A DNA stretch of 64,000 nt from Gallionellaceae bacterium (GTDB taxonomy: Bacteria > Pseudomonadota > Gammaproteobacteria > Burkholderiales > Thiobacillaceae). The DNA is taken from NCBI GenBank assembly GCA_028714875.1, contig JAQTLN010000002.1, positions 124,001 through 188,000 of the forward strand. The letters are read 5' to 3'. Shown here piece by piece: positions 26,997 through 59,835 of the stretch. Position 1 is the stretch's first letter, and the number at the start of each line of letters is the position of its first letter. Made by a program: the position numbers and the translations under genes. The notes beneath the pieces are model-generated. The model did not search any database. It saw only the letters and a program-made list of their open reading frames with translations, and was not told the origin of the DNA.

Positions 26997-27860
26997 CTAC
27001 AGCGCCCGGCCTTCTCCCGCTTCCTCGTAAGTTCGCCCATCGCGGATGTGATAGATGCGCTTGAAGGTGGGGATGATCTTCTCGTCGTGGGTGACGACGA
27101 TGATGGCGGTGCGGTACTGGCTGGCCATCTGGTTGAGGATGCGCATGACGCCCAGCGCGCGTTCGCTGTCGAGTGGGGCGGTGGGTTCGTCGGCGAGGAT
27201 GACCGGCGGCTGGTTGGCCAGGGCGCGGGCGATGGAGACGCGCTGTTGCTCGCCGCCGGACAGTTGCGACGGCTGCGCTTTCGCCCGGTGCGCGACGTCG
27301 AGCGCCTCCAACAGTTCCACGGCGCGCCGGCGCGCTTCGCCGTTGGGGCGACCCGAAAGCATGGGCAGCAAGGCGACGTTATCGGTCACGTCGAGAAAGG
27401 GGATCAGGTAAGGCGCCTGGAACACGAAGCCGATGCGGTCGCGGCGCAGCGCGCGTAGATCGCGGGTTTTCCAGGCGTTGTCGTAGATCGTCTCGCCGCC
27501 CAGGGTCATGCGCCCGGCGCTAGGTTCGATCACCGCGCCCAGGCACTTGAGCAGGGTGCTCTTGCCCGAGCCGCTGGGGCCGACCAGGCCGACCACTTCG
27601 CCGGGGGCGACGCGCATGTTCACGTCCTTCAAGGCGTCCACCGCCGTGTCGCCGGCGCCATAGCGTTTGCGCAGACCTTCGATGAGGATGCCCGCGTCTT
27701 CGGTTGACGTGCTCCCCCCTTTTTCAAAGGGGGGCCGGGGGGGATTTGCGGGCGTTCCACTGTCGGCCGGCGTCGGAAAATCCCCACTGCCCCCCTTTTC
27801 CAAAGGGGGGGTCTCTGCATCACGATTGGATTGGTTAGCGCTCAACTTAGTCCCGTTCAT
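26997..27860 (-). CDS. ABC exporter ATPase (DevA/LolD/MacB-like) with N-terminal repeat-encoded insert
   Basis: A 287-residue ATPase that powers the FtsX-type permease encoded just upstream. Walker A is GPSGSGKST, the signature LSGGEQQR, Walker B VILADEPT followed by PLDS, and the switch His is in VTHDE. Length is about 50 residues above the family norm. The excess is N-terminal: residues 17-49 are encoded by a palindromic element (27714-27811) and read as proline/glycine/lysine-rich sequence with PPLEKGG and PPFEKGG. The true ABC fold begins at ILIEGLRKRYG (about 58). ATG 27860 follows a GGAGG site and lies one base past the permease stop, so translation is probably coupled. Substrate is unknown. 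Confidence 0.92.
   Translation of the reverse strand: MNGTKLSANQSNRDAETPPLEKGGSGDFPTPADSGTPANPPRPPFEKGGSTSTEDAGILIEGLRKRYGAGDTAVDALKDVNMRVAPGEVVGLVGPSGSGKSTLLKCLGAVIEPSAGRMTLGGETIYDNAWKTRDLRALRRDRIGFVFQAPYLIPFLDVTDNVALLPMLSGRPNGEARRRAVELLEALDVAHRAKAQPSQLSGGEQQRVSIARALANQPPVILADEPTAPLDSERALGVMRILNQMASQYRTAIIVVTHDEKIIPTFKRIYHIRDGRTYEEAGEGRAL
27714..27811. repeat. C-tract/G-tract palindromic element A (in frame in ABC ATPase N-terminus)
   Basis: About 98 bp. Each end is itself a small hairpin: C6 TTTTTC AAAG6 on the left, C6 TTTTCC AAAG7 on the right. Inner blocks CCGGGGGGGATTT and AAATCCCC complete a terminal inverted repeat of about 34 bp. The centre is not conserved between copies. On the minus strand it is read through without a stop as part of the ATPase. 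Confidence 0.85.
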
Positions 27861-27861
27861 C

Positions 27862-29055
27862 TCAACCTCCGATCGCGGTGGCCGGGTCCACCCGCAGCGC
27901 GGCGCGGATGGCCAGGGTGCTGGCGAGGGCGCAGATCAGCATGACCGCGACGAAGCCGCGCAACGCGTCCTCCGGAGTGAGCAGCACGTATTTGGGAAAC
28001 GCCGGCGCCCAGAAGGTGGCGGCGACCTTGCCCACGGCGAAACCGATCAGGCCCAGGCCCAACGCCTGCTGCAGGATCATGCCGGCGATGGTGCGGCTCT
28101 TCGTGCCGATGAGTTTCAGCACGGCGATCTCGCGGATCTTGCCCAGGGTCATGGTGTAGATGATGAAGGCGACGATGGCCGCGCTGACGATGGCCAGGAT
28201 CACCAGGAACATGGCGATCTGCCGCGCCGAGGTGGCGATCAGCTTGGCCACCAGGATTTCTTCCATCTGCGCGCGGGTGTAGGCCTGGAGATGCTTCCAG
28301 CGGCGTATTTCCTGGGCCACGGTCTCCGGGGCGTACCCGGCGGCCGCGCGCACCAGCACGGTGTTGACGTTGTGGTTGCTGGACTGGGACGCCTGGATGG
28401 CGTCGAGCAAGCCGGGCACGCCGGGGCGGTTCAGGGCCGGGTTGGCGGCGGTGCGCGCGCGGTCGTTGCGGATGGCCTCGTTGTCCTTGAGGAACTGCGC
28501 CTCCTGGGCATCTTTGAGCGGGATGAACAGCATCGGGTCGCCCCCCGACGAGACCATGCGCCGGGTCAGCCCCACCACCGAGTAGTCGTGGCGGCGAATG
28601 CGGACGACTTCGCCCAGCGCGAAGCCGGTCTTTACATCGGCGACCGCTTCGTAATGGCCGCGTGTGAGCTGGCGACCGGCGACCAGGTAGCCGGGTTCGC
28701 CCGGCTGGCCGGGGGTGATGCCCACCACCATCGCCCGCACATCTGAATCACCACGGCGCACCTGCATGGTGAGATAGGTGACGTTGGCGGCGGCGGCCAC
28801 GCCGGGCAGGCCGAGCAGGTTGCGATAAATATCGTCGCGCAGGCTGGAAGGCTCGGCATACGGCCCCAGCGTGTCCTTCTGTACCACCCAGAGATCGGCG
28901 CCGCTGTTCTCCAGCAGCACTTTGGCGTCGTCCACCATACCCCGGTAGACCCCGGCCATGGTCAAGGTCACGCCGATCAACAGCCCGAGGCCGACGCCGG
29001 TGAAAACGAACTTGGCCCAGGAATGCAGGATGTCGCGCCCGGCCAGGCTGATCAT
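27862..29055 (-). CDS. FtsX-like ABC exporter permease (DevC type)
   Basis: A 397-residue inner-membrane permease. One N-terminal membrane helix (FVFTGVGLGLLIGVTLTMA) is followed by a large periplasmic MacB-type region and three C-terminal helices (around FLVILAIVSAAIVAFIIYT, ILQQALGLGLIGFAVG and GFVAVMLICALASTLAI). This MacB/DevC topology suits exporters working with an HlyD adaptor. I chose ATG 29055 because GGAGG lies 7 nt upstream; an in-frame ATG at 29079 lacks this. The downstream ATPase starts one base after the stop and the HlyD gene lies upstream. The cargo cannot be inferred; DevBCA homologues export glycolipids and MacAB exports macrolides or peptides. Confidence 0.9.
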   Translation of the reverse strand: MISLAGRDILHSWAKFVFTGVGLGLLIGVTLTMAGVYRGMVDDAKVLLENSGADLWVVQKDTLGPYAEPSSLRDDIYRNLLGLPGVAAAANVTYLTMQVRRGDSDVRAMVVGITPGQPGEPGYLVAGRQLTRGHYEAVADVKTGFALGEVVRIRRHDYSVVGLTRRMVSSGGDPMLFIPLKDAQEAQFLKDNEAIRNDRARTAANPALNRPGVPGLLDAIQASQSSNHNVNTVLVRAAAGYAPETVAQEIRRWKHLQAYTRAQMEEILVAKLIATSARQIAMFLVILAIVSAAIVAFIIYTMTLGKIREIAVLKLIGTKSRTIAGMILQQALGLGLIGFAVGKVAATFWAPAFPKYVLLTPEDALRGFVAVMLICALASTLAIRAALRVDPATAIGG

Positions 29056-29086
29056 TGGGGATGCCTCCGAGCAGCGCACCCGATAG

Positions 29087-29152
29087 GTAGCGCCGGCATC
29101 CTGCCGGCGTCTTTGCGCTGACCAGATGAGCCGGCAAGGATGCCGGCGCTAC
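29087..29152. repeat. GTAGCGC-type inverted repeat (copy 2)
   Basis: 66 bp, ends GTAGCGCCGGCATCCTGCCGGC and the matching GCCGGCAAGGATGCCGGCGCTAC arm in inverted orientation, lying between the HlyD gene and the permease gene of the same operon. It could form a strong hairpin in the operon mRNA. Confidence 0.75.
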
Positions 29153-29194
29153 ATAGGTGGCACTCATCCGTTTGGCGGGGGGCGCCAAAGGTAC

Positions 29195-30382
29195 TCATGG
29201 TTTTTGCCCCGCCAGAGCCGGTACCACCTTGACGCGACTGGTGGCGGCCAGTTCGCGTTCGCTGTAGACCACCACTTCGCTGCCGGCCTTCAGGCCGTCG
29301 AGAATTTGCACCCGGCCGTCGAGGCCGCGCGCGCCCGCTTTCACGGGGACGAAACGCGGGTGTCCGTCGGCGATCACCCAGACCCCGCTCTGCTCATCCA
29401 ACTGCTTCAAGCTGGCGTTGGGCACGACCGGGGAGGGCGCGGCGGCGGGCAGATCAAGGGTGACTTCCGCCAGCTCGCCGATGGAAACCGTGGTGGGTGG
29501 GGTGGTGAACACTATCTGCGCGATGCGCTCCTCGGTGATGGCATCGCTGACCAATTCGACCCGCGCCACCTTGCCCGGCAGCGCTGTTTTCGGCTGGGAA
29601 CGGAGCACGATGCGCGCCGGCAGACCCTCGGCCAGCCCTTCGGAGCGGCCCTGATCGAAGCGTACCCGCAGCCACAGGCTGGCCGGGTCGACCAGCCGCA
29701 ACACCGCCTGGCCGGCCACCACTGTGGAGCCGGGTTCGGCCTCGCGCGCGCTGACCACGCCGTCGCTCGGCGCCAGCAGACGCACATTGGCGCGCTGTTG
29801 GCGCAGCCCCTGCCGTTCCGCCGCCTGGCGCTCAATGTCCTGACGCGCGCCGACGAGCGCCGCCGCCGCCCCCTCCAGCCCGGCGCGGGCGGATTGCTCT
29901 TCCTGAATCTTGGCGTCCACCACGCTCTGGCTGACGAACATCCGCGCCCCCAACTCCGTGTAGCGGCGCGCGTTGATGGCCGCGAGTTCGCGTTTGCTGG
30001 CGGCGTCTTGTTGCTGCGCCTGCGCCACGGCCACCGCGCTGCGCGCGCGCGCCAGGCCGGCATCCAGGGCCGCTACCCGTTGGTCCAGGTCCACCGGGTC
30101 CATTTCCGCCAGTAACTGCCCGGCGCGTACCGGATCGCCGACATCGACCAGCACCCGTTTCACCCGACCGGCGACCGTGGGGCCGATCAGATAAGCCCGC
30201 CGTGCTTCCACCGTGCCGATGCCGAACAGCGCCGGCGCCACCGTACCCTGTTCCACCTTGGCCACGGTCACGCGGATCGGCGCCAGGGGGCCGCTCCGCG
30301 CCACGACGAAGCCCAGGCCCGCGAGCAACAAGAGGCCCATGAGGGCAAACAGCCATTTGCCGGAGACGGTGGGGAGTTTCAT
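29195..30382 (-). CDS. HlyD-family periplasmic adaptor of ABC exporter (DevB/MacA-like)
   Basis: A 395-residue membrane-fusion protein. It has one N-terminal anchor (WLFALMGLLLLAGLGFVVA, residues 10-28), a first biotinyl-lipoyl half (GPTVAGRVKRVLVDVGDPV), a long Ala/Gln/Arg coiled-coil hairpin (about 100-200), the second lipoyl half (LLAPSDGVVSAREAEPGSTV) and beta-barrel and membrane-proximal domains (ending VKVVPALAGQ). It should link the permease to an outer-membrane channel; no TolC-type gene is nearby. ATG 30382 has a GGAGG site. It precedes the permease and ATPase genes in the same direction, forming a tripartite-exporter operon. Confidence 0.92.
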   Translation of the reverse strand: MKLPTVSGKWLFALMGLLLLAGLGFVVARSGPLAPIRVTVAKVEQGTVAPALFGIGTVEARRAYLIGPTVAGRVKRVLVDVGDPVRAGQLLAEMDPVDLDQRVAALDAGLARARSAVAVAQAQQQDAASKRELAAINARRYTELGARMFVSQSVVDAKIQEEQSARAGLEGAAAALVGARQDIERQAAERQGLRQQRANVRLLAPSDGVVSAREAEPGSTVVAGQAVLRLVDPASLWLRVRFDQGRSEGLAEGLPARIVLRSQPKTALPGKVARVELVSDAITEERIAQIVFTTPPTTVSIGELAEVTLDLPAAAPSPVVPNASLKQLDEQSGVWVIADGHPRFVPVKAGARGLDGRVQILDGLKAGSEVVVYSERELAATSRVKVVPALAGQKP

Positions 30383-30430
30383 TGCACCTCCCGGTGGCGG
30401 GTGGCGTGCAACTCGGCATTCAATGTCGCG

Positions 30431-30589
30431 CTATTCAAGGCGTAGCTCCTCGGGCTGGAGGGGGGGGAAACAATCGTCAAATGAGGCTACCAGGCGCTCC
30501 AGGTCGGCAAACAGGTCATAGCGCGTGGTTTCCAGCCAGCGCGCCAGATGCGCCGGCTCGAATTGTCCCGATTTCTCAACGCGCGCCAT
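30431..30589 (-). CDS. Possible 52-residue small protein between cytochrome c' and HlyD genes
   Basis: Starts with ATG 30589 overlapping the end of the cytochrome c' gene by 14 bp and ends 48 bp before the HlyD gene. The product (MARVEKSGQFEPAHLARWLE and onward) is acidic and probably helical, with no membrane segment or signal. The overlap and orientation suggest translational coupling. I do not recognise a family, and the open frame extends upstream inside the cytochrome gene, so it could be chance. Confidence 0.4.
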   Translation of the reverse strand: MARVEKSGQFEPAHLARWLETTRYDLFADLERLVASFDDCFPPLQPEELRLE

Positions 30590-31004
30590 AGAAATGGTTG
30601 ACGAACGGCTTGCGGAATTCGCGGTGGCAGTCGTAGCAACTGGTCTGGAGTTTCTCGAAGGCCAGGATGACACCCGCGCCATCCCCGGTTTTGGCGGCTT
30701 TGCCGAGTGCCTGCGCCTGGGCGTGGGTTTCACTGTCATGCGCCTTGAATTTGCCCATGTCGCTGCCCATGAAACTCATGATGCGCATCTTTTCGGAGAG
30801 CGGCGGCTGCGGGTGGTTGGCGATCAGGGGCGCGGTTTTTTCCACCAGTGCCCAGTCTTCACGGGAAATGCCGTCGGTAATGGTTTGCATGTTGCCGCCC
30901 AGGTCACGCATGACCTTCTGGAGAACGAGCGGCTCGGCCGCTTGCGCGCCGATGGCGGCGAGCGCCAGGCAAGCGGCGAGGATGGGTTTAAGCGCGTTGT
31001 TCAT
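30576..31004 (-). CDS. Cytochrome c' (class II, C-terminal haem)
   Basis: A 142-residue periplasmic protein: signal peptide MNNALKPILAACLALAAIGAQA, then a four-helix-type sequence with the haem motif CYDCH at 123-127, near the C-terminus as in class II cytochromes c. Length and motif place fit cytochrome c'. Such proteins bind NO or serve as electron carriers; which applies here cannot be read from the sequence. I chose ATG 31004 because a good signal peptide starts there; the open frame extends far upstream without sense. It lies directly upstream of the small gene and HlyD gene and may be in their operon. Confidence 0.85.
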   Translation of the reverse strand: MNNALKPILAACLALAAIGAQAAEPLVLQKVMRDLGGNMQTITDGISREDWALVEKTAPLIANHPQPPLSEKMRIMSFMGSDMGKFKAHDSETHAQAQALGKAAKTGDGAGVILAFEKLQTSCYDCHREFRKPFVNHFYGAR

Positions 31005-31065
31005 GTCAGGCACCTTTATCGGAAACGATCTGGAGGTGGCGGGCGGGTGTAACCGCCTGCCGCGC

Positions 31066-31419
31066 TTATTGCGGCGTGATGATGCTGTCCTGCCCGGTCT
31101 GGCGATGTTCCTGGCGCATTTCGCTGTTTTGTCGTGTCTCGCGGTTCTGTTGCATGTCACCGGACTGGGAAGCGTCGCGTGTCCGGGTGCGATCGCGCGC
31201 CATATCCTCCGATTGTGAAGCATCGCGTGAGCGAGTCCTCGTCATGTCGCCGGAACCCTGTCCACCGCCCTGGCCGCCGCCCTGGCCACCCATCTGGCCG
31301 GAACCCATGCCACCGCCGCTCATGCCACCACCGCCACCACCGCGCGCTTCGGCGTCGAGGGTCATGCCGATGGCAAGAAGGGTGACGAAGGCCGCGATAA
31401 GAGATTTCGATTTGTTCAT
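31066..31419 (-). CDS. Secreted Gly-rich low-complexity protein
   Basis: A 117-residue protein starting at ATG 31419 after GGAGC. Signal peptide MNKSKSLIAAFVTLLAIGMTLDAEA is followed by a glycine-rich block (GGGGGGMSGGGMGSGQMGGQ) and an Arg/Asp/Gln-rich part holding an imperfect repeat, RTRSRDASQSEDM and RTRTRDASQSGDM. Probably periplasmic or surface, intrinsically disordered. I recognise no family. It is upstream of cytochrome c' on the same strand. Confidence 0.65.
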   Translation of the reverse strand: MNKSKSLIAAFVTLLAIGMTLDAEARGGGGGGMSGGGMGSGQMGGQGGGQGGGQGSGDMTRTRSRDASQSEDMARDRTRTRDASQSGDMQQNRETRQNSEMRQEHRQTGQDSIITPQ

Positions 31420-31480
31420 GGTGTTGCTCCTGTCTGTTGCCTGTGAATAAAGGAAATTGCTTCCAGCCTGGCGTCGTGCC

Positions 31481-31756
31481 TTAACGGCCATGGCCGCGCT
31501 CGCCACGCGCGCCGAGGCCCTGGCGGGCTTCGTAGCCGGTGCCGTAGCGAGCGCCGCCGCGCGGCGTGGTGCTGAATCGACTGCCCCATTCCCTGTCTCC
31601 GCCGAGATCGGGCAGACGGGATTCAGGCGGGGGCGGGTACAGCGCAGTGACTGGCGACGCGGCTTCTTCGTTCACCTTCGGCTCGTCTCTCGGCGCTGCC
31701 TGAGCGGCTGTGGCGAAGAGCAGGACGGTGAATGGAAGCAATCGGCTGGGCCTCAT
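31481..31756 (-). CDS. Small secreted protein of unknown function
   Basis: A 91-residue product with a clear signal peptide (MRPSRLLPFTVLLFATAAQAA) and a mature part rich in Pro, Gly and Arg (YPPPPESRLPDLGGDREWG; RGGARYGTGYEARQGLGARG). No cysteine and no domain that I recognise. Likely periplasmic and disordered. It precedes the Gly-rich protein gene on the same strand and lies divergently from the response regulator. The signal peptide is the main support for it being real. Confidence 0.55.
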   Translation of the reverse strand: MRPSRLLPFTVLLFATAAQAAPRDEPKVNEEAASPVTALYPPPPESRLPDLGGDREWGSRFSTTPRGGARYGTGYEARQGLGARGERGHGR

Positions 31757-31923
31757 GGCATTGCGTGGCTGTTGATGGAGGCTGAAGTATCCGGCCCGGC
31801 CATTTCCCCCTGTTTACCCAGCCGACACAGGTTGTTTCAGGTTGTTTCGCGGCATTCGGCGGCGGCGCGCTTGCCGGTAACATGGCGCGTCCCCGCATTC
31901 CGGGCGGGGGAGGAGTGGTGGAC

Positions 31924-32652
31924 GTGGGCGAGGAAGCAAAGCAACGTATTCTGCTGGTGGACGACGACGCGGCGCTGCGCGAACTGGTGACCGATTACCT
32001 CGGCGCCAGCGGTTTCCAGGTGGACGGCGTCGGTGACGGCGCCGCTTTGCGCGTTCGCATGGCGGAGCGCGGCGCCGATCTGGTGGTGCTCGATCTGATG
32101 TTGCCGGGCGAGGACGGTCTGAGTTTGCTCAGATGGTTGCGCGCCGAGGGTGGCCCGCCGGTGATCATCGTCTCGGCGCGCGGCGAGGAAGTGGACCGGG
32201 TGGTGGGCCTGGAACTCGGCGCCGACGACTATCTGGCGAAGCCGTTCGGCCCGCGCGAACTGCTCGCGCGGGTGCGCGCGGTGTTGCGCCGCGGCGCCGC
32301 CGAGAGCGCGGCGAAAGAATCCAGCATGGCGGCCGAGGTCGCCACATTCGGCCCCTTCCGGCTCGATCTCGCCACCCATGTATTGGTGTGCGATGGCCGC
32401 GAAATCGGCCTGACCTCGGGCGAATTCACGCTGCTGCGCATTTTTCTCGAACATCCCAACCAAGTGCTGACCCGCGACCATTTGATCACCCTGGTCAAGG
32501 GGTATGAACGCGCGCCCTTCGACCGCAGCGTGGACGTGCGGGTGACTCGTCTGCGCCGCAAGATCGAGCCGAATCCGGAAGCGCCGATCTATCTGCGCAC
32601 CATCTGGGGCGAGGGCTACCTGTTCTCGCCGCGTGGCGAAGGGGCCGCTTGA
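31924..32652 (+). CDS. OmpR-family response regulator
   Basis: About 242 residues. The receiver domain has acidic pair DDD (13-15), phosphoacceptor D57 (VVLDLMLPGEDG) and K106 (AKPFGPREL). A winged-helix DNA-binding domain follows (GLTSGEFTLLRIFLEHPNQV, then TIWGEGYLFSP). I chose GTG 31924 because GGGGAGGAG lies about 9 nt upstream; ATG 31882, also in frame, has no such site. It overlaps the following histidine kinase gene, so the pair is co-translated. Target genes are unknown; the divergent small secreted protein gene is a possible one. Confidence 0.93.
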   Translation: MGEEAKQRILLVDDDAALRELVTDYLGASGFQVDGVGDGAALRVRMAERGADLVVLDLMLPGEDGLSLLRWLRAEGGPPVIIVSARGEEVDRVVGLELGADDYLAKPFGPRELLARVRAVLRRGAAESAAKESSMAAEVATFGPFRLDLATHVLVCDGREIGLTSGEFTLLRIFLEHPNQVLTRDHLITLVKGYERAPFDRSVDVRVTRLRRKIEPNPEAPIYLRTIWGEGYLFSPRGEGAA

Positions 32653-33965: not shown

Positions 33966-34061
33966 GTCGGGTTAGGCGCGGTTTTTTGCGCCGTAACCCG
34001 ACAACGGCGGCCACCCGCGAGTCTCCTCGGGTTACGCGATAAGGCCGCTAACCCGACCTAC
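33962..34061. repeat. GTAGGTCGGGTTA inverted-repeat element supplying two stop codons
   Basis: 100 bp with perfect 13-bp ends GTAGGTCGGGTTA / TAACCCGACCTAC and inner hairpins (GTCGGGTTAGGCGC with GCGCCGTAACCCGAC around a T6 loop). The left TAG is the stop of the histidine kinase and the right TAG (minus strand) is the stop of the acyl-CoA synthetase. It probably also terminates both convergent transcripts. Confidence 0.8.
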
Positions 34062-36767: not shown

Positions 36768-36781
36768 CCGGGATACAACTT

Positions 36782-41097: not shown

Positions 41098-41192
41098 CCC
41101 TCCCCCCGGGAGAGGGCCGGGGAGAGGGAGCAACGTCGGCCAGGCGAGGCGGGTTCCCTCTCCCCCAGCCCCTCCCCCGCCGGGGGAGGGGA
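41098..41192. repeat. CCCTCTCC/GGAGAGGG palindromic element (copy 1)
   Basis: 95 bp between cheA and the EAL-HDOD gene. Outer hairpins CCCTCCCCCCGGGAGAGGG and CCTCCCCCGCCGGGGGAGG flank a variable centre; the right half shares TTCCCTCTCCCCC.GCCCCTCCCC with the copy at 62262. Ends 25 bp before the next start codon. Confidence 0.8.
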
Positions 41193-41216
41193 GCGTGATC
41201 GTTGGGATAACCATTC

Positions 41217-42434
41217 ATGAGCAATAACGCCTACATCGCCCGGCAACCCATCGTCGACGGCGAGCATCGCCTGATCGCCTACGAACTGCTGTTCCGCCAT
41301 TCCGCCCACGCCCAGAGCGCGCATATCGACACGGACGTGGATGCCGGCATCACGGTCATTTCCAACACCCTGTTCAACATGGGCACGGAGTGGCTGCTCA
41401 AGGGCAAGCTGGCTTTCGTCAACATGGAGGTTTCCATGCTGATGAGCAGTTTCTCCACCCTGCTGCCGCGAGAAAACGTGGTGATCGAGGTGCTGGAGAC
41501 GGTGCGCGTCACGCCCGAGGTGCTGGCGCGTCTTCAGGAACTCAGGGAAGCCGGCTATCGTTTCGCGCTGGATGACTTCAACTATCTGCCGGAATCCGAG
41601 CCGCTGTTGCCGCTCGCCGACTACGTCAAGCTGGACGTGCTGGCGCACACGCCGGAGGAACTGACGCGGCTGGTGCATGCCATCCGCAAGTACCCGGTCA
41701 AGCTGGTGGCGGAAAAGGTGGAAACCCCGGAACAGTTCCGCCATTGCCGTTCACTCGGCTTCGATTTTTTCCAGGGCTATTACTTTGCGCGCCCGGAAAA
41801 TATCGTCACCCGGATCATCAACCCCACTCACGCCACCGTCCTGCAACTCATGGAAAAGGTGCGCACGGATGCCGACCTCAAAGACCTGGAGAACCTGTTC
41901 AAGAAGGATGTCGCGCTCACCTTCAAGCTGTTGCGCTACATCAATTCGGCCGGATTCGGTTTGTCCTGCGAAGTGCAGTCGATCCGCCACGCGGTCAGCA
42001 TCCTCGGCATGCAGCCGCTCTACCGCTGGCTCAGCCTGCTCCTGGTTACCGCCGGCACCGGCCCCACCGCGCCCACTTTGGCGCGCACCGCCATCACGCG
42101 CGGGCGTCTGTGCGAACTACTCGGCAAACAGAGCCTGGCGCGCAACGACCAGGACAACCTGTTCATCGTTGGTGTCTTCTCCCTGTTGCCCGCTCTGCTG
42201 GAAATCACCATGGAGCAGTTGCTGGATCGGGTCGTCATTCCGGAATCCTTCGCCGACGCGCTACTCAATCGCCTGGGCCTCTATGGCCCCTTCCTGGCGT
42301 TGGCCGAAGCGATGGAAAGCGGCGAACTGGAACGCCTGGAAGACCTCAGCACCTCGCTCATGCTCACCAGCGGCCGGGTCAATGAAGCGCACATGCAGGC
42401 GCTGGCCTGGGTGGAGCAGTTGGGAATCGACTGA
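41217..42434 (+). CDS. EAL-HDOD signalling protein (YuxH/CdgJ-like)
   Basis: A 405-residue cytoplasmic protein. An N-terminal EAL-type domain (1-200) keeps YELLFR in place of EAL, DDFNY, KLDVL, AEKVE and FQGYYF. A C-terminal HDOD domain (205-400) begins NPTHATVLQLME, with LLRYINSAGFG and HAVSILGMQPLYRWLSLL. The EAL metal and catalytic residues look incomplete, so c-di-GMP binding or no hydrolysis is more likely than phosphodiesterase activity (inference from family). Homologues affect motility and sit near chemotaxis genes, which fits its position after cheA. Confidence 0.9.
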   Translation: MSNNAYIARQPIVDGEHRLIAYELLFRHSAHAQSAHIDTDVDAGITVISNTLFNMGTEWLLKGKLAFVNMEVSMLMSSFSTLLPRENVVIEVLETVRVTPEVLARLQELREAGYRFALDDFNYLPESEPLLPLADYVKLDVLAHTPEELTRLVHAIRKYPVKLVAEKVETPEQFRHCRSLGFDFFQGYYFARPENIVTRIINPTHATVLQLMEKVRTDADLKDLENLFKKDVALTFKLLRYINSAGFGLSCEVQSIRHAVSILGMQPLYRWLSLLLVTAGTGPTAPTLARTAITRGRLCELLGKQSLARNDQDNLFIVGVFSLLPALLEITMEQLLDRVVIPESFADALLNRLGLYGPFLALAEAMESGELERLEDLSTSLMLTSGRVNEAHMQALAWVEQLGID

Positions 42435-42523
42435 TTTCGGATGTCGGATTTCGGATTTCGGATTTTTCTCGCGCGGCTGGCCGCGCCTGACTCCCGAAAT
42501 CCGAAATCCGAAATCCGAAATCG
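42433..42523. repeat. Inverted array of 7-bp GGATTTC units between convergent genes
   Basis: Left arm holds tandem GGATTTC/GGATGTC units; right arm holds four GAAATCC units in inverse orientation around a GC-rich core (GCGCGGCTGGCCGCGC). It separates the EAL-HDOD gene and sixA (minus strand). The hairpin could terminate both. Confidence 0.75.
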
Positions 42524-51040: not shown

Positions 51041-51087
51041 GCGCGCATCAATTCGTGCCTGTTACCACGTCAATCGAGGAAATCCGG

Positions 51088-52260: not shown

Positions 52261-52286
52261 GTTGAGCATGGCGCGGCGCCTCCAGA

Positions 52287-52356: not shown

Positions 52357-52384
52357 ATGTGGGCCTCCGGCTAATGGACCGTGT

Positions 52385-52864
52385 TCAACGCATGTAGGCG
52401 TAACCCTCCTGTTGCAGACGGACGATTTCCGCGTCGGCCATCGGCACCAGGCTGACGAAGCCGTGAATGTCTTTCGGCAGCAAGCCGTGCCCTTCCGCCG
52501 CCAGCTTGCACATGCGGAATTCAATCAGGCCGGTGAGCGTCGCGCTCTGGGCGCGTTGCATCAATTCGCGATACTTGCCCAGGTTCTTCACGGCAAAAAA
52601 GGGAATCTCGTCGCCGTGCAGGACGATGACCACTTTGTTGTCGAATGGGTCGCTGCCGTTAAGATCGACCAGCAATTGCGCGCGGCTGATCACGGAGCGC
52701 ACGGCCGCCTCGGAACTGGTCGCCACGTCATACACCACCTTCTGCTTGGCATAGGCTTGCGCCACCGCCTTGCCGCGTCCCCAGGGCGTCTCGGAGTCGG
52801 CCGCCGAGGCCGCGTTGAAAGGGAGCGAGAGGGCGGCAATCAACAACAATAACGACCAGCGCAT
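52385..52864 (-). CDS. Secreted DsrE/DsrF-like protein
   Basis: A 159-residue protein with signal peptide MRWSLLLLIAALSLPFNAASA. A DsrE-like fold follows: KVVYDVATSSEAAVRSVIS, KVVIVLHGDEIPFFA, a Cys in FRMCKLAAEGHG (about residue 120) and the end FVSLVPMADAEIVRLQQEGY. Family members bind or transfer sulfur through a conserved Cys; periplasmic members are poorly characterised. It is divergent from the ABC importer operon at 53070. Confidence 0.82.
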   Translation of the reverse strand: MRWSLLLLIAALSLPFNAASAADSETPWGRGKAVAQAYAKQKVVYDVATSSEAAVRSVISRAQLLVDLNGSDPFDNKVVIVLHGDEIPFFAVKNLGKYRELMQRAQSATLTGLIEFRMCKLAAEGHGLLPKDIHGFVSLVPMADAEIVRLQQEGYAYMR

Positions 52865-53069
52865 GGCGTTCTCCTGGTGGGTGGGGTAGTGCGTGGAGCG
52901 GTATGGAAGCGGTTTGGTTGCGCGAGATCTCGTGGCCGCTTGCGTTACAACCAGGATGCAACACTACACTAGCGGCCTTTTGCTACTGGATCAGCGCTCG
53001 GCATCAGGCGGAGCAGGTAGCATCAAACCCATCCGTTGCACGACGAATAACCAGGTAAAACCCAGTCGT

Positions 53070-55430
53070 ATGAGCCCGCCCGATGTTCTGACGCAGCAAT
53101 CCAGGCCCCCGAGGCTGGAGCATTTCCCCGCTGCGGGCTACCTGGGTCGCGCCCTGTCGCTGTGCTGTGTTTTTTTCATCGCCGCCTGTTCCGGGCCGGT
53201 CAACAGCCCCTATCCGGCGTCCGAGGGTGGAAAGCGTGGTGCGTCCAGCGCTTACTCCGCCTTTGGCGAGCGGCCCAAACACCTCGACCCGGCGCGTTCC
53301 TACAGCGAGAACGAATACGTCTTTCTCGGCAACATCTACGAGGCGCCGCTGCAATACCACTATCTGAAGCGGCCCTACCAACTGGAACCGCAGACCACCA
53401 CCGCGATGCCGACGGTGCGTTATCTCGATGCCCAGGGGCGGGGGCTGCCGGCCAACGTGGCGGCGGCGAAGATCGCGGTGTCGGAGTACGAGATTCACAT
53501 CAAGCCGGGTATCCGCTACCAGCCGCATCCGGCCCTCGCCAGGGACGCGGCGGGCAAGCAGCGTTATGTGCCGATCAAGCCGGAGGAGTTGGAGCGCATT
53601 GCCCGCTTCGAGGATTTCCCGGAGAAGGGTAGCCGCGAGTTGACCGCCGCCGATTACGTCTATCAGGTGCGCCGCCTGGCGCACCCGCGCGTGCAATCGC
53701 CCATCCTCGGGCTGATGGCGGATGCCATCGTCGGCTTGAAAGACCTGGCGCGGGACCTGGGCAAAGCGGCCAAGAATCAGCCGAAGGACGCTTATCTGGA
53801 CATCGCGAAGTTTGATTTCCCCGGCGCCTATGTGGTGGATCGTTACACCTATCGCATCCGCGTCAAGGGCAAGTATCCGCAGTTCGTTTATTGGCTGGCC
53901 ATGCCCTTCTTCGCGCCGGTGCCGGAGGAGGCGGAGCGCTTCTATCGTCAGCCGGGCATGGCGGAACGGAATTTCACCCTGGATTGGCAGCCGGTGGGCA
54001 CGGGCGCCTATTACCTGGCCGAGAACGACCCTAACCGGGTCATGCGCTTGCGGAAGAATCCTTATTACCACGATGATTTCTATCCCTCGGAAGGTGACCA
54101 CGGCGACCGCGAGGCGGGCATGCTCGATGACGCGGGCAAGCGTCTGCCGATGGTGGAGTCGGTGATCTATTCCCTGGAAAAAGAGGATGTGCCGTACTGG
54201 AACAAGTTCTTGCAGGGCTATTACGACGCCTCCGGCGTGAGCTCCGACAGCTTCGACCAGGCCATCCGCATGAACGCCAAAGGTGAGCCGGATCTGACCG
54301 ACGACATGCGCCAACGCGGCATCCTGCTCTCCACCGCCGCGCGGCCGTCGCTCAACTACATGGGCTTCAACATGCTCGACCCGGTGGTGGGCGGCCTGTC
54401 GGAAAGGGCGCGCAAGTTGCGCCAGGCCTTGTCGATCGCCATCGATTACGACGAGTTCATTTCCATCTTCCTCAACGGCCGCGGCCTGCCGGGGCAGGGG
54501 CCGTTGCCGCCGGGAATATTCGGTTATCGGGACGGGCTGGCGGGGATGAATCCGGTGGTGTATCGGGCGGATTGCGGGAACCCCCCTTTTCCAAAGGGGG
54601 GCAGGGGGGATTTAGCAACGTCGGCAGAGGCGCAACCCTCGCTGAAATCCCCCCCAGCCCCCCTTTGGAAAAGGGGGGAGTCGGTCTCGCCGAGTCCCGC
54701 CGACTGCGCCCGCTTCAAACGCCGCCCCCTGGACGACGCGAAGAAACTGCTCGCCGAAGCGGGTTACCCCAACGGCCGCGACGCCGCCACCGGGCAGCCG
54801 CTCACCCTGTACTTCGACACCGCCGCGAGTGGACCAGAAGCCAAGAGCCGCATGGACTGGTTCCGCAAGCAGTTCGCCAAGTTGGATATCCAGTTGGTGA
54901 TTCGCGCCAGCGACTACAACCGTTTCCAGGACAAGATGAGCAAGGGCAGTGAGCAGATATTCGAGTGGGGCTGGAACGCCGATTACCCCGATCCGGAGAA
55001 TTTCCTGTTCCTGCTCTACGGCCCCAACAAGAAAGTCGGCGGTGGCGGCGAGAACGCGGCGAACTACCACAATCCGGAATTCGACCGCCTGTTCGAGCGC
55101 ATGAAGGACATGGACAACGGCCCGGAACGCCAGGCGGTGATCGACGCGTTGGTGAAACTCGCGCGCGAGGACGCGCCCTGGATCTACGCCTTCCACCCCA
55201 AGAGCTTCGGCCTGCGCCACGGCTGGGTGAAGAACGCCAAGCCCAATCTGATGACCCACAACTTGCTCAAGTACCGCCGTATCGACCCGGCCGCGCGCGC
55301 CGCCTATCAGGCGAAATGGAACCGCCCCGTGCTGTGGCCGGTGCCGGCTACCCTGGCCGTGCTGGTGGCGTTGATCTGGCCGGCAGTGGCGGGGTATCGG
55401 CGGCGATTGAAGGCGACGGCCCATGCTTAA
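53070..55430 (+). CDS. Oligopeptide-type ABC substrate-binding lipoprotein with in-frame palindromic insert
   Basis: A 786-residue SBP_bac_5 (DppA/OppA/YejA) protein. The lipobox IAAC puts the lipidated Cys at residue 40. Typical motifs: AFGERPKHLDPARSYSENEY, then TGAYYLAENDPNRVMRLRKNPYYHD, and ARPSLNYMGFNMLDPV. About 500 residues in, residues 504-537 are encoded by a palindromic element (54581-54678) and read NPPFPKGGRGDL... PLWKRGES. The residues ADC occur on both sides of the insert (RADC before, PADC after). The C-terminus has an unusual membrane helix (about 752-775; ATLAVLVALIWPAVAGY). Start ATG 53070 is the first that gives a lipoprotein signal. Stop overlaps the next gene by 8 bp. Confidence 0.9.
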   Translation: MSPPDVLTQQSRPPRLEHFPAAGYLGRALSLCCVFFIAACSGPVNSPYPASEGGKRGASSAYSAFGERPKHLDPARSYSENEYVFLGNIYEAPLQYHYLKRPYQLEPQTTTAMPTVRYLDAQGRGLPANVAAAKIAVSEYEIHIKPGIRYQPHPALARDAAGKQRYVPIKPEELERIARFEDFPEKGSRELTAADYVYQVRRLAHPRVQSPILGLMADAIVGLKDLARDLGKAAKNQPKDAYLDIAKFDFPGAYVVDRYTYRIRVKGKYPQFVYWLAMPFFAPVPEEAERFYRQPGMAERNFTLDWQPVGTGAYYLAENDPNRVMRLRKNPYYHDDFYPSEGDHGDREAGMLDDAGKRLPMVESVIYSLEKEDVPYWNKFLQGYYDASGVSSDSFDQAIRMNAKGEPDLTDDMRQRGILLSTAARPSLNYMGFNMLDPVVGGLSERARKLRQALSIAIDYDEFISIFLNGRGLPGQGPLPPGIFGYRDGLAGMNPVVYRADCGNPPFPKGGRGDLATSAEAQPSLKSPPAPLWKRGESVSPSPADCARFKRRPLDDAKKLLAEAGYPNGRDAATGQPLTLYFDTAASGPEAKSRMDWFRKQFAKLDIQLVIRASDYNRFQDKMSKGSEQIFEWGWNADYPDPENFLFLLYGPNKKVGGGGENAANYHNPEFDRLFERMKDMDNGPERQAVIDALVKLAREDAPWIYAFHPKSFGLRHGWVKNAKPNLMTHNLLKYRRIDPAARAAYQAKWNRPVLWPVPATLAVLVALIWPAVAGYRRRLKATAHA
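54581..54678. repeat. C-tract/G-tract palindromic element B (in frame in binding-protein gene)
   Basis: 98 bp. Left end C6 TTTTCC AAAG6 CAGGGGGGATTT; right end AAATCCCCCCC AGCC C6 TTTGGAAAAG6. The ends are inverted copies of about 33 bp. Near-identical 9-mers flank it (GCGGATTGC upstream, GCCGACTGC downstream), possibly a decayed target duplication. Confidence 0.88.
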
Positions 55431-56400
55431 CTACCTCATCCGCCGCATCCTCTATGCCATCCCCATATTGCTGGGGGTGAATCTGCTGACCTTCGCGCTG
55501 TTCTTCATGGTCAACACGCCGGATGACATGGCGCGCATCCATCTCGGCGTGAAGCATGTCACGGCGGACTCAATCAGCCGCTGGAAGATCGAGCATGGCT
55601 ACGACAAACCCTTGTTCTTCAATGAAAAAGCGGTGGGCGCGGCGCGGGCGGCGGATACCTTGTTCGTGGAGAAGTCGCTCAAGCTGTTCGCCCTGGATTT
55701 CGGCGCCGCCGACGACGGCCGCGACATCGCCCGCGAGATCAAGACGCGGATGTGGCCCAGTCTGGCGATCGCGCTGCCCACCTTCCTGGTCGGCCTGCTG
55801 GCGTACATCAGTTTCGCGCTGTTGTTGGTGTTCTTCCGCGGCACTCGCCTGGATACGGCCGGGGTGGTGTTGTGCGTGGCGCTGATGTCGATCTCCGGCC
55901 TGTTCTATGTGATCGGCGGCCAATACCTGATGGGCAAGCTGTGGCACTGGTTTCCCATTTCCGGCTATCAGCCGGGGCTGGATGCCTGGAAGTTTCTCGT
56001 GATGCCGGTGCTGGTCAGCGCGGTGGCGAGCATCGGCGACTCCACCCGCTTCTACCGTTCCCTGTTTTTCGAGGAGATCGCCAAGGATTACGTGCGCACC
56101 GCGCGCGCCAAGGGCTTGTCGGAACTTCGCGTCCTGTTCCGCCATGTGCTGGGCAACGCGATGATTCCGATCCTGACCGGCGTGGTGGTGGTGATACCGC
56201 GCCTGTTCATGGGCAGCCTGATCATCGAATCCTTCTTCGGCATTCCCGGCCTCGGCAGCTACACCATCGACGCCATCCAGGCGCAGGACTTCGCCATCGT
56301 CCGCTCCATGGTGTTTCTCGGCTCGCTGCTCTACATCCTCGGCCTGGTGCTGACCGATATTTCCTACACGCTGGTGGACCCGCGGGTGAGGCTGGAATGA
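55423..56400 (+). CDS. Peptide-type ABC importer permease (DppB/YejB class)
   Basis: A 325-residue inner-membrane permease. N-terminal helix MLNYLIRRILYAIPILLGVN, a periplasmic segment with VTADSISRWKIEHGYDKP, about five further helices, and the EAA cytoplasmic loop IAKDYVRTARAKGLSELRVLF that docks on the ATPase. It ends YTLVDPRVRLE as DppB-class proteins do. It overlaps the binding-protein gene by 8 bp and precedes the second permease, separated by palindromic element C. Confidence 0.92.
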   Translation: MLNYLIRRILYAIPILLGVNLLTFALFFMVNTPDDMARIHLGVKHVTADSISRWKIEHGYDKPLFFNEKAVGAARAADTLFVEKSLKLFALDFGAADDGRDIAREIKTRMWPSLAIALPTFLVGLLAYISFALLLVFFRGTRLDTAGVVLCVALMSISGLFYVIGGQYLMGKLWHWFPISGYQPGLDAWKFLVMPVLVSAVASIGDSTRFYRSLFFEEIAKDYVRTARAKGLSELRVLFRHVLGNAMIPILTGVVVVIPRLFMGSLIIESFFGIPGLGSYTIDAIQAQDFAIVRSMVFLGSLLYILGLVLTDISYTLVDPRVRLE

Positions 56401-56433
56401 AAGTGATCGCTCAAGTGTCGGCGCGGGTTTGCC

Positions 56434-56531
56434 TCCCCCTTTTTCAAAGGGGGATCGAGGGGGATTTTGGTTTTTTTACTTCGCGCAAGCGTCAGCTAAA
56501 TCCCCCCCCACCCCCCTTTGAGAAAGGGGGG
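56434..56531. repeat. C-tract/G-tract palindromic element C (between the two permease genes)
   Basis: About 98 bp. Left end C5 TTTTTC AAAG5 ATCGAGGGGGATTT; right end AAATCCCCCCCC ACC... TTTGAGAAAG6. Its right-hand GGGGGGAG ends about 6 nt before GTG 56540, so the element appears to provide the ribosome-binding site of the next gene. Confidence 0.85.
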
Positions 56532-56539
56532 AGTTGGCT

Positions 56540-57958
56540 GTGATCAAACCCGTCCTGCTCTGGTCCGATGCCCTGATCCTGCTGCTTTTGTGGAGCGTGG
56601 CCGGCCTGGTCTGGCTGGCGCGCAACAACGAGACGCTGCGCGGCCCCTGGCGCCAGTTGCTGCGCAATCCGGTGGGCGCCAGTACCGCTCTGATTCTCGC
56701 GGTCTATGTCGCCATCGGCCTGCTCGATTCCGTGCATTACGTCGAACGCCTGCCCGACACGCCCGGCCAGGCGGCGCGGTACAGCGGCGAGGTGCGCTCG
56801 GGCCTGGATTGGGCGCTGACACCGCTACGCGAGAACGTCGAGAAGACCTATTCGGCGCCGTTCGCCACGCATCTTTATGCCAAGGAAACCTTGAAGGGGC
56901 CAGATGGCGGTGAACTGCGCGATTTCCCCCGGCTGAAATACGGCGGCGCGCATCTGGCCGACGCGCGACAGGACTTCTGGCCGGATCTGCTGACGCGGGG
57001 CGGTCTGGGGATGCTGGCCGGATTGATCGCCTGGCTGGTTTTCTTCCCCCTTTTTCAAAGGGGGAGCGAGGGGGATTTAGTGGCGACCGCATCCAGTGCC
57101 AAGAACAAATCCCCCCTAACCCTCCTTTGGGAAAGGGGGGGATTGGCCCCCGCGTTCGCCTGGACCCTCCTTGCCATCCTGCTTCTCGTCGGCTTGCTCA
57201 TCGCGCTCGCGCCGAACTATCACATTCTCGGCACCGATAAGGTGGGCCAGGACGTGCTTTACCTGTCGCTCAAGTCCATCCGCACCGGTCTCCTGATCGG
57301 CAGCCTCACCACCCTGGTGATGCTGCCCTTCGCCCTGGGGTTGGGCATCGCCGCCGGCTATTTCGGCGGCCGCGTCGACGATGTCATTCAGTACCTCTAT
57401 ACGACCTTGAACTCCATTCCCGGCGTCTTGCTGATTGCCGCCGCCGTGCTGGTGGTGCAGGTGCAGATCGAAGCCCACGCCGAACTGTTCAACACCGCCG
57501 CCGCGCGTTCCGATGTGCGTCTGCTCGCCTTGTGCGGGATTCTCGGCGTCACCGGCTGGACCGGCCTGGCGCGGCTGTTGCGCGCCGAGGCGCTGAAATT
57601 GCGTGAGCTGGAATTCGTACAGGCGGCGCGCGCTTTCGGCGTCACTCACAGCCGCATCCTGCTGCGCCATCTGCTGCCCAATGTCATGCACCTGGTGCTG
57701 ATTACCGTGGTGCTCGATTTCTCCGGCCTGGTGCTGGCCGAGGCGGTGCTGTCCTATGTCGGGGTGGGCGTCGATCCGGGCATGATCAGCTTCGGCAACA
57801 TGATCAACGGCGCGCGTCTGGAACTGGCGCGCGAGCCGGTGGTGTGGTGGCAACTGGCCGCCGCTTTCCTGTTCATGTTCGTGCTGGTGCTGGCCGCCAA
57901 TCTGTTCGCCGACCAGGTGCGAGACGCGCTCGATCCGAAATCGAGTGGACGCAAATGA
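56540..57958 (+). CDS. Peptide-type ABC importer permease (DppC/YejE class) with in-frame palindromic insert
   Basis: A 472-residue permease, longer than the usual 290-340. Helix near residues 6-27 (LLWSDALILLLLWSVAGLVW), a second after NPVGAS, a periplasmic stretch, a third (GLGMLAGLIAWLVFF), then an insert at about 169-201 encoded by a palindromic element (57046-57140), then further helices and the EAA loop (EFVQAARAFGVTHSRILLRHLLPN). I chose GTG 56540 because GGGGGGAG, from element C, is spaced correctly; TTG 56534 is the alternative. It overlaps the ATPase gene by four bases (ATGA). Confidence 0.9.
   Translation: MIKPVLLWSDALILLLLWSVAGLVWLARNNETLRGPWRQLLRNPVGASTALILAVYVAIGLLDSVHYVERLPDTPGQAARYSGEVRSGLDWALTPLRENVEKTYSAPFATHLYAKETLKGPDGGELRDFPRLKYGGAHLADARQDFWPDLLTRGGLGMLAGLIAWLVFFPLFQRGSEGDLVATASSAKNKSPLTLLWERGGLAPAFAWTLLAILLLVGLLIALAPNYHILGTDKVGQDVLYLSLKSIRTGLLIGSLTTLVMLPFALGLGIAAGYFGGRVDDVIQYLYTTLNSIPGVLLIAAAVLVVQVQIEAHAELFNTAAARSDVRLLALCGILGVTGWTGLARLLRAEALKLRELEFVQAARAFGVTHSRILLRHLLPNVMHLVLITVVLDFSGLVLAEAVLSYVGVGVDPGMISFGNMINGARLELAREPVVWWQLAAAFLFMFVLVLAANLFADQVRDALDPKSSGRK
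57046..57140. repeat. C-tract/G-tract palindromic element D (in frame in second permease)
   Basis: About 95 bp. Left end C5 TTTTTC AAAG5 AGCGAGGGGGATTT; right end AAATCCCCCC TAACC CTCC TTTGGGAAAG7. Encodes FPLFQRGSEGDLV ... SPLTLLWERGGL, a different reading frame at the left end from element B. Confidence 0.85.
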
Positions 57959-59835
57959 AAACGCCCATGAAAGGACTTTCGGTTGAAAACCTGAGTGTGG
58001 AAATCAGCGCCGGCAACCGTCTGTTGAAGCCGGTGGAGGGCGTGAGCTTCGCCATCGGTCGCGACGAATGCGTGGCCCTGCTGGGCGAATCCGGCTGCGG
58101 CAAGTCGATGACCGCGCTGGCCTTGATGCGTTTGTTGCCGGACGGCGCGCGGGTGGCTTCGGGCAGCGCGCGGCTGGAAGGCGAGGAACTGTTCGCCCTG
58201 ACGGAAGCGGCGATGGGCGACGTGCGCGGCGGCCGTCTGGCGATGATCTTCCAGGAGCCGCAAACCAGCCTGAACCCGGTGATGACCGTCGCCGAGCAGA
58301 TTGCCGAGGCGCTCGCCGCGCATCGCGACCTGAGCGGCAATGCCGTGTCGGCCGAGGCCGGGCGCTTGCTGGAAGCGGTGGGCCTGGAGCGCGACCGGCT
58401 CGCCGCCTACCCGTTCCAGCTTTCCGGCGGCCAGCGGCAGCGCGCCCTGATTGCCATGATGCTGGCGGGCGAACCCGAGGTGCTGATCGCCGACGAACCC
58501 ACCACCGCGCTGGACGTGACCGTACAGGCGCAGATCCTGGCCCTGTTGCGCGACCTGCAACGGCAACGCGGCATGGGCTTGCTGCTGATCACCCACGACC
58601 TCGACGTGGCGAGCGACATGGCGGACCGCGTGGCGGTGATGTATGCCGGCCAGATCGTCGAATGGGCCGACCGCGACAGCCTCTATGCCACGCCGCGCCA
58701 CCCCTACACGCAAAAGCTGTTCGCCGTGCTGCCGCGCCTGGACCGGCGCGGCGAACGCCTGGACAGCCTGCCCGGCCGCGTGCCGCCGCCCGATGCCGTG
58801 ATCATCGGTTGCCGTTTCGCGGAACGCTGTCCGGCGGTCTTCGCGCGTTGCCGCAAGGAGGCGCCCGGTTTCCATGAGTCGGCGCCGGGGCATTTCGCGA
58901 GGTGCCATCTGGCCGAAGCGCAAACCATCCCCCCCTTTCTCAAAGGGGGGCCAGGGGGGATTTCTACGCACGCCGGTGTTCCCACTGCCGCAAATCCCCC
59001 CCCGCCCCCCTTTGAAAAAGAGGGGAGTGACGTACTTGCCGTCCGCGACCTCGCCGTCCACTTCCCCATCCGCAAAGGCCTGTTCCGCCACACCGTCGAC
59101 CACTTCAAGGCGGTGGACGGGGTCAGCCTGTCCATCCAGGCCGGCGAGACGCTGGCATTGGTGGGCGAATCCGGCTGTGGCAAGAGCACCCTGGCGCGCG
59201 CGGTATTGCGCCTGATCGAACCCACTCGTGGCGAAGTATGGGTGGCGGGTGTGGCGGTTGGCGGGCTTTCCGGCGAGGTGTTGCGGAAGAAGCGCGCCGA
59301 GATGCAGATCGTGTTCCAGGACCCGTTCTCCTCGCTCAACCCGCGCATGCGCGTCGGCGAAATCCTGGAAGAGGGCATGGCCGCGCTGCTACCGCTGACG
59401 GCCGCCGAGCGGCGCGCGCGGATCGCGCAATTGCTCGATCAGGTCGGCCTGCCCGGCGACGCGGTCGGCCGCTATCCACACGAATTCTCCGGCGGCCAAC
59501 GGCAACGCATCGCCATCGCCCGCGCCCTGGCGGTACAGCCCAAGCTGTTGATTCTCGACGAGCCGACCAGCGCGCTGGACGTCTCGGTGCAGGCGCAAAT
59601 CCTCAACCTGCTGGCGGATTTGCAGGCGGCGCACGGCCTGGCCTATCTATTCATCACCCATAACCTGCCAGTGGTGGGCTACCTGGCACAGCGCGTGGCG
59701 GTGATGCGGGCGGGGCGCATCGTCGAGGAAGGCCCGGCGGAACGCCTGTTGACCGCGCCACAACATGAATACACCCGTCTGTTGCTGGATTCGGCGCCGG
59801 GCAAGCACCCCTTTGTAGGTCAGGTTGGCGCGTAG
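57955..59835 (+). CDS. Fused double ATPase of peptide-type ABC importer (DppDF/YejF class) with palindromic linker
   Basis: A 626-residue protein with two ABC domains. First: Walker A GESGCGKS (about 44), signature LSGGQRQR, Walker B VLIADEPTTALD, then the oligopeptide-transporter C-tail with CRFAERCPAVFARC. Second: Walker A GESGCGKST (about 404), FSGGQRQR, LLILDEPTSALD. Between them residues 325-358 come from a palindromic element (58929-59027). The fused form matches YejF (about 529 residues). It powers the two permeases upstream. ATG 57955 overlaps the permease stop. Its last residues (FVGQVGA) and stop are encoded within an inverted repeat at 59815. Confidence 0.93.
   Translation: MKTPMKGLSVENLSVEISAGNRLLKPVEGVSFAIGRDECVALLGESGCGKSMTALALMRLLPDGARVASGSARLEGEELFALTEAAMGDVRGGRLAMIFQEPQTSLNPVMTVAEQIAEALAAHRDLSGNAVSAEAGRLLEAVGLERDRLAAYPFQLSGGQRQRALIAMMLAGEPEVLIADEPTTALDVTVQAQILALLRDLQRQRGMGLLLITHDLDVASDMADRVAVMYAGQIVEWADRDSLYATPRHPYTQKLFAVLPRLDRRGERLDSLPGRVPPPDAVIIGCRFAERCPAVFARCRKEAPGFHESAPGHFARCHLAEAQTIPPFLKGGPGGISTHAGVPTAANPPPPPFEKEGSDVLAVRDLAVHFPIRKGLFRHTVDHFKAVDGVSLSIQAGETLALVGESGCGKSTLARAVLRLIEPTRGEVWVAGVAVGGLSGEVLRKKRAEMQIVFQDPFSSLNPRMRVGEILEEGMAALLPLTAAERRARIAQLLDQVGLPGDAVGRYPHEFSGGQRQRIAIARALAVQPKLLILDEPTSALDVSVQAQILNLLADLQAAHGLAYLFITHNLPVVGYLAQRVAVMRAGRIVEEGPAERLLTAPQHEYTRLLLDSAPGKHPFVGQVGA
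58929..59027. repeat. C-tract/G-tract palindromic element E (in frame in ATPase linker)
   Basis: About 99 bp. Left end C7 TTTCTC AAAG6 CCAGGGGGGATTT; right end AAATCCCCCCCC GCC C5 TTTGAAAAAGAGGGGAG. Encodes IPPFLKGGPGGI ... NPPPPPFEKEGS, joining the two ATPase halves. Confidence 0.85.

Follow-up and report, generated by a model that had tools for sequence, protein, structure and literature searches.

A dispersed double-hairpin repeat with in-frame copies in a yej-like operon of a Gallionellaceae bacterium, and a full-length form with IS1595-like ends

A first-pass annotation of one stretch of DNA from a Gallionellaceae bacterium (assembly GCA_028714875.1, contig JAQTLN010000002.1, positions 124,001 to 188,000; 64,000 nucleotides, here called the window) pointed to five palindromic units, all touching ABC-transporter genes and four of them said to lie inside genes with the reading frame kept. 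Does an element family invade transporter genes here, or is the window a local view of something more widespread? We compared the window's own genome (G000) with other genomes of the genus, which are referred to by G-numbers. The repeat is real and of a mobile type, it is mostly ordinary in its location, and the ABC-transporter theme is local. The reading that we hold to be probable, with some reserve, is that a non-autonomous, selfish palindromic repeat accounts for all five features, its full-length form having been moved by an IS1595-family transposase and its sites in genes refilled in frame by several repeat families.

The five units and their family

All five units were found, with lengths of 95–99 bp (n = 5) and no strand assigned to them. 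Each consists of two C-tract-TTTNNNAAA-G-tract hairpins; in each of the units at 57046 and 58929, one arm carries a base change in the tract. The GGGGGATTT / AAATCCCCC blocks are likewise present in all five, except that in the unit at 27714 the second block reads AAATCCCC followed by A. The hairpin ends and paired blocks described earlier were thus recovered with these changes.

The first unit (27714..27811) lies in the open N-terminal extension of a minus-strand ABC ATPase gene (26997..27860; ORF with ABC_tran at 2.5e-35; LolD-like, a name given by inference); the gene caller cut off this extension, and the unit was classed as "edge." The other four lie along a plus-strand yej-like operon. 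In the gene of a family 5 solute-binding protein (yejA-like, 52893..55430; ORF with SBP_bac_5 at 3.9e-46), the unit at 54581..54678 sits in frame at about residues 504–536, counted from 53070, and is shared with G017. The yejB-like permease gene (55423..56400; ORF, name likewise inferred) has no insert and served as the anchor for finding the loci of relatives, its best match in each of 22 relatives being 85%–95% identical. The unit at 56434..56531 is intergenic, in the yejB/yejE gap. The unit at 57046..57140 lies in frame in the N-terminal part of a yejE-like permease gene (56534..57958; ORF with BPD_transp_1 at 9e-26) and is common to G000, G006, and G017. The last unit (58929..59027) is in frame in the linker joining the two ATPase halves of a fused, yejF-like protein (57967..59835; gene call with ABC_tran in two stretches). 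In-frame placement within a gene therefore stands for yejA, yejE, and yejF; the two remaining units are at a gene edge and between genes.

In the 4.08-Mb genome, exact matches to the hairpin CCCCTTTNNNAAAGGGG number 507, against none for the reversed-pattern control, and the five units are members of a genome-wide repeat family far above chance. With a stricter core pattern, 156 matches were obtained on the forward strand and 157 on the reverse, many units matching on both. The centres of the units do differ, as first described, but they are not unrelated. Their length is 29–31 bp in 51 of 64 sampled cores, and many are weakly alike, sharing a AGCRACGTTYGC-like half. At least two of six frames are open in 58 of 66 copies, as had been noted for the arms, but random 97-mers of the same GC-rich genome are open slightly more often, so that no special openness of reading frames was seen.

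Beyond this genome, 12 of the 23 genomes of the genus, G000 included, have the arm pattern, the number of matches per strand ranging from 0 to about 200. Four of 38 further genomes of the family (1–2 matches each) and 2 of 40 other genomes of the order also have it. Of 398 genomes sampled from the phylum, only 5 do, G000 again included. Record titles from many phyla, and also viral contigs, are among the matches listed. A plasmid search for the 193-bp unit described below gave no match, and the literature searched, with most subscription papers outside its reach, yielded no published name, sequence, or peptide for the hairpin repeat.

The full-length form and its likely source of movement

Some units have outer flanks of 45 and 55 bases. 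These belong to a full-length form of ~193 bp, in which imperfect terminal inverted repeats (GGCTCTGTTCGCGTTAAC-like) surround the ~97-bp double hairpin. A profile built from five flanked copies and run on the G000 sample and on G006 stretches matched 129 distinct loci, most of them over the inner unit only; 13 matches span >170 bp. Both ends are readable in 10 of these 13 long copies, seven of which are exactly 193 bp. Exact 8-bp direct repeats border four of the ten full-length copies (AAGAAAAA, TTTGAGAA, TTGGGAAA, and TTTTTCAT), which is the target duplication expected of an IS1595-type MITE; in the remaining copies seven of eight flank bases match in one, six in two, and 1, 3, and 5 in three others. 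At random places, not AT-matched, an 8/8 match at 193-bp spacing was met 6 times in 20,000. For one copy in G006, the counterpart site in G000 is empty. By eye, 4 of the 10 full-length copies, two of them with exact duplications, have a C-tract on one side and a G-tract on the other, at TTTNNNAA-like sites, and these look as if they lay inside sibling hairpins.

IS1595-family transposases (PF12762) were found at 14 loci in 8 of the 23 genus genomes. Ends of the repeat's type were seen at only two of the 14, several loci being truncated. One of the two, in G022 (L349), has ends GGCTGTGTTCGCAAATCA and an exact 8-bp duplication. The other, in G004 (L346), has ends GGCTCTGTTCGCGAATACTG, with 3 of 8 flank bases matching and no exact duplication; it shares 13 identical leading bases (GGCTCTGTTCGCG) with one copy of the repeat (L323). 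A further IS1595-family element, in G017 (L339), has different ends together with an 8-bp repeat. G022, which lacks any match to the arm pattern, contains a 173-bp element whose ends are similar to those of the full-length form, with an 8-bp repeat that is exact. Because of its 8-bp duplications and of ends like those of two IS1595 elements of the genus, the full-length form is, on sequence grounds, best read as an IS1595-type MITE, which a DDE transposase of that family would have moved in trans. The GGCTCTGTTCGCG-type ends and the duplications are what it shares with such elements; it differs from them in being ~193 bp long, in having no transposase gene, and in carrying the double hairpin. 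For ISApl4, the accessible part of the report (PMC12561309) gives A/T-rich 8-bp repeats and ends GGGGCTGTACTAGA, unlike those of the hairpin repeat.

A cognate transposase was not detected in G000 (no PF12762 hit at E 0.001). IS1595 hits occur in 5 of 12 genomes with the repeat and in 3 of 11 without it, and none was found in the repeat-rich G000, G012, G016, and G020. Since the hits do not track the repeat, present IS1595 activity on it is not supported. ISL3 was considered as a source and rejected: the sole G000 hit to PF01610 is partial, lies (by eye) in a long desaturase-like frame, and has no matching ends. Strong ISL3 hits are present in G008, G009, G012, and G020, and none of the ISL3 loci examined combines ends of the repeat's type with a duplication.

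Most sampled copies consist of the inner double-hairpin module only, without recognisable ends. In only 14 of 66 units, against 1 of 66 control stretches, did one or both flanks score ≥5 bits; five of the 14 had been in the profile's training set, and none of the eight in-gene or edge units is among them. All in-gene copies are bare ~97-bp modules that lack recognisable terminal ends, and for bare units, these included, the terminal inverted repeats and duplications of an IS1595-type MITE were not found. At 87 distinct unit boundaries, MITE-flanked ones kept in, direct repeats of ≥4 bp were no more frequent than after shuffling (8, against a mean of 8.6), while repeats of 6–7 bp numbered two against a shuffled mean of 0.8. 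Bare units may be MITEs worn down by decay or deletion of their outer parts, or they may move separately. In eight orthologous pairs, whose flanks are 76%–95% identical, 19 of 48 positions differ in the three-base loops of the hairpins and 3 of 224 in the stems, the latter figure being biased since detection requires the stem. The stretch between the hairpins differs at 48 of 294 positions in the five pairs of equal length, 28 of these differences falling in one pair.

Separate movement is the core of a REPIN-like explanation, by which the ~97-bp double hairpin travels as single-stranded DNA through a Y1 transposase (RAYT) and the 193-bp form is a MITE that was hit once by it. We regard this as unlikely, if still deserving of weight. 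As far as the part of the source seen describes them (PMC3116915), REPINs consist of two inverted REP-like hairpins with a spacer, in many dispersed copies; the repeat described here also has two inverted hairpins with a variable centre and many dispersed copies, and its unit boundaries are not enriched in target duplications. Five Y1_Tnp genes are present in G000, and one other locus (L114) holds a GTAG-type repeat inside another stretch bounded by terminal inverted repeats. However, an exact hairpin or arm was found within ~1.5 kb of none of the 33 Y1_Tnp loci examined (58 matches listed), the five of G000 among them, and G016, G020, and G021 carry the repeat with no Y1_Tnp hit. The GTAG or CGTC tag is absent at the hairpin foot, where the outer flank base counts are of CT-type bases. 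The full-length form with its duplications points instead to a DDE transposase, as the IS1595 reading would have it.

The same sites in related genomes

The yejE and yejF sites could be compared in 21 relatives and the yejA site in only 10 of 22. The frame is kept at yejA in 9 of 10 (broken in G005), at yejE in 21 of 21, and at yejF in 20 of 21 (broken in G013). Some relatives have no insert at all at yejA and yejE. An insert was called palindromic when its best inverted repeat exceeded the best of 50 shuffles. At the yejF linker this holds for 7 of 21 relatives, the frame-broken G013 among them, and these together with the window's genome display at least six palindrome families: arms of GTAGCCCGG in G011 (by eye also in G022), GTAGGGCGG in G017, the C-tract family in G006 and the window, CCCTCCCCC in G012, CGTAGGGTGCGCC in G013, and GTAGGTTGGG in G007. 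The other 14 have no repeat above shuffles, although some resemble decayed copies by eye. At the yejE site, 4 of 21 relatives exceed shuffles with three kinds of repeat: the window's family in G006 and G017, a GTAGCGCC repeat in G011, and a CCCTC-type repeat in G022. Short PLWQRG-like peptides at this site in G005, G015, G016, and G020 have, by eye, the look of remnants. At yejA, G017 alone exceeds shuffles, palindromes in G011, G015, and G020 being seen by eye only. The intergenic site at 56434 is empty in some relatives, and in others holds other palindromes or the same family (G006 and G012).

A blind scan of 166 kb from the yej loci of 22 relatives found 18 strong inverted repeats, against none in the shuffled control. 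Six are at gene junctions, one at the yejA site, five at the yejF linker (five different ones), and six around the operon end, one of the last being a weak repeat that falls within yejF, close to the end of the gene. The scan dropped repeats >400 bases from an alignment, and the yejE site was below its threshold. At a linker of MutL, discussed below, G022 has another sequence, also in frame, in which the best inverted repeat scores 8 against 12 for shuffles.

G000 also contains a second unit type, CTCCCC(T/C)CTCCC-loop-GGGAGAGGGG with CTG/CCG/TTA and GGGGGTGAGGG. Its layout and linking trinucleotides resemble those of the family reported here, and an AGC[AG]ACG-like core start follows within 14 bases in 5 of its 29 pattern matches (background 0.003 per 14-mer), compared with none of five in G022. 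Common ancestry is a suggestion. On that premise, the CCCTC-type repeats seen at yejE and yejF would be kin to the reported family instead of unrelated.

The yejF linker sequence has turned over repeatedly within the genus, and tolerant linkers seem to be refilled repeatedly by different palindromes. Several families of palindromic repeats would have come to fill such sites, each at its own time, so that the repeats would act as replaceable in-frame spacers. A tentative extension, to which we give a modest chance, is that a palindrome in a tolerant linker attracts later palindromes, so that families replace one another at the same codons in a self-renewing in-frame linker. The TTTNNNAA-like sites of four of the ten full-length copies and the six or more families at the yejF linker hint at such docking.

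The yej palindromes could instead be functional RNA or regulatory hairpins that tune operon expression by pausing, coupling, or mRNA decay. They do lie at junctions and within genes of one operon in several species, and the full-length form has a strong predicted fold. Set against this, the region 52800–60000 has no Rfam match at gathering score, relatives have different repeats or none at the same sites, and the same repeat is scattered genome-wide; we consider the idea quite improbable. Three low-threshold microRNA hits (L067), one over the 193-bp unit, are far below gathering scores and were taken as chance.

Still less probable are ancestral loops in place of insertions. Two yejF homologues from other genera do have a linker at the same place, shorter by ~15 residues, and the yejE insert is common to three genomes. 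The absence of the insert from some relatives contradicts such an origin at yejA and yejE, and different species have different repeats at the yejF linker. Insertion into genes, as first proposed, thus holds for yejA and yejE, whereas at yejF the repeat, given the shorter linkers of the two other genera, fills and lengthens an existing one.

Location of copies, precedents, and meaning

Locations were scored for 66 paired units in ~841 kb of the genome, the window included. Contig C1 was taken whole and some stretches of C3, C4, and C5 were picked for copies already known there, so the copy density of the sample is biased. Genes were called by a home-made codon-usage caller (coding fraction 0.80–0.92 per stretch), which would score a unit as intergenic where the insert had broken its gene. 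With these calls, 58 of the 66 units are intergenic, seven are inside genes, and one is at a gene edge; on C1 alone, 15 of 16 are intergenic and one is in a gene. A mostly intergenic distribution had been named beforehand as a sign that the in-gene bias is local chance, and this is borne out in part: the yej operon, with three in-gene copies within 4.5 kb (in the solute-binding protein, permease, and double ATPase genes), is a cluster nonetheless.

The other four in-gene hosts are mutL, an AcrB-type pump gene, a Cu-oxidase_4 gene, and a poorly classified gene whose sole Pfam match, B12-binding, is below the Pfam cut-off (470 of 674 residues scanned). Contact with ABC-transporter genes is thus true of the window's five copies and fails in the wider sample. 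No preference for such genes is seen among the eight in-gene or edge copies of the 841-kb sample: three are in one operon, one is at an ABC ATPase gene edge, and four are elsewhere, so the ABC link amounts to one operon and one gene edge and makes no rule. That ABC transporters are decorated with a PPFxKGG peptide in a targeted or adaptive way is scarcely credible, since the yej operon holds three of the seven in-gene copies but the four other hosts are not ABC transporters, the copies use different frames and peptides, and sister species have other repeats there.

Under the selfish-repeat reading, selection would purge most insertions from genes, judging by how rare copies are there. Survivors would sit where the protein tolerates extra residues and the frame is open, for example in the yejF interdomain linker or the MutL linker, where the unit is at about residue 341, between DNA_mis_repair (210–325) and MutL_C (438–580). 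The added peptide is most likely near-neutral, by prediction.

The likeness to rickettsial palindromic elements (RPEs) drawn in the first-pass annotation is right in kind, in that a repeated palindrome can lie in frame in unrelated proteins; by description, RPEs are the closest precedent for in-frame palindromes. RPEs are ~150 bp and nearly half are in ORFs, according to the part of the source seen (PMC10969869), whereas the repeat described here is mostly intergenic and has a full-length form with terminal inverted repeats and 8-bp duplications. For reoccupation of a site, the closest precedent, by analogy, is that of the GTAG/CGTC REPs. The accessible part of the study (Di Nocera 2013, PMC3733652) describes inverted hairpin pairs (REP dimers), mostly intergenic, some of which lie in genes, repair genes included, and code for 20–30 residues; in two species of Xanthomonas, recB has different REPs at nearly the same site. 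The hairpin repeat lacks their tag, and the 33 Y1_Tnp loci revealed no linked RAYT. QMITE1 and QMITE2 of Coxiella, in the portion of their report seen (PMC5896051), are MITEs that touch ORFs, sometimes in frame, QMITE2 containing a GTAG REP; they resemble the present repeat by description and differ in size.

A widely spread hairpin repeat, for which no name was found in the literature searched, is now linked to a MITE form with IS1595-like ends. The part worth pursuing is the recurrent in-frame filling of the same linkers by different palindromes across one genus. This genus offers filled, empty, and differently filled alleles at fixed protein positions, a natural in-frame replacement series, and hence both the route from mobile palindrome to protein sequence and the recurrent use of linkers become testable.

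Loop and structural variation of the double-hairpin unit

The three-base hairpin loops of the ~97-bp double-hairpin repeat were compared in eight orthologous unit pairs between the genome that contains the window (G000) and its relatives. Differences were found at 19 of 48 loop positions, and the loops look hypervariable relative to their flanks. Units of 117 bp also occur (G000 contigs C1:308013, C1:330408, and C3:57621, and the yejE permease gene site at locus L092); their length is due to approximately 24 extra bases, similar to TGATGAAGCCCCTACCCTTCGGTA, within the AAATCCCC block. At three G000 loci (L089 on contig C5, L090 on C4, and L070 on C2), the unit is repeated in tandem together with flanking host DNA, with periods of ~174 and ~204 bp in the L089 array. 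When IMG/VR viral contigs were scanned with the search pattern for the hairpin arm, matches were detected in at least 120 stretches.

Other palindromes in the window

At ~41109-41200 of the window, two hairpin arms of the CTCCCC type occur together with a core resembling AGCAACG, in a layout similar to that of the double-hairpin family. At ~42433-42522, a GC-rich centre is flanked by ATTTCGGATTTCGG units as an inverted repeat; six such arrangements were found in the ~841 kb G000 sample, which includes the window.

Other reading frames

From position 817 to 23037, the window consists of one open reading frame, 7406 amino acids long. At locus L016 (positions 1-2350), reading frames with repeated peptides adjoin a gene for a Y1 transposase domain (Y1_Tnp) protein; these frames probably represent a different repeat family translated as protein.
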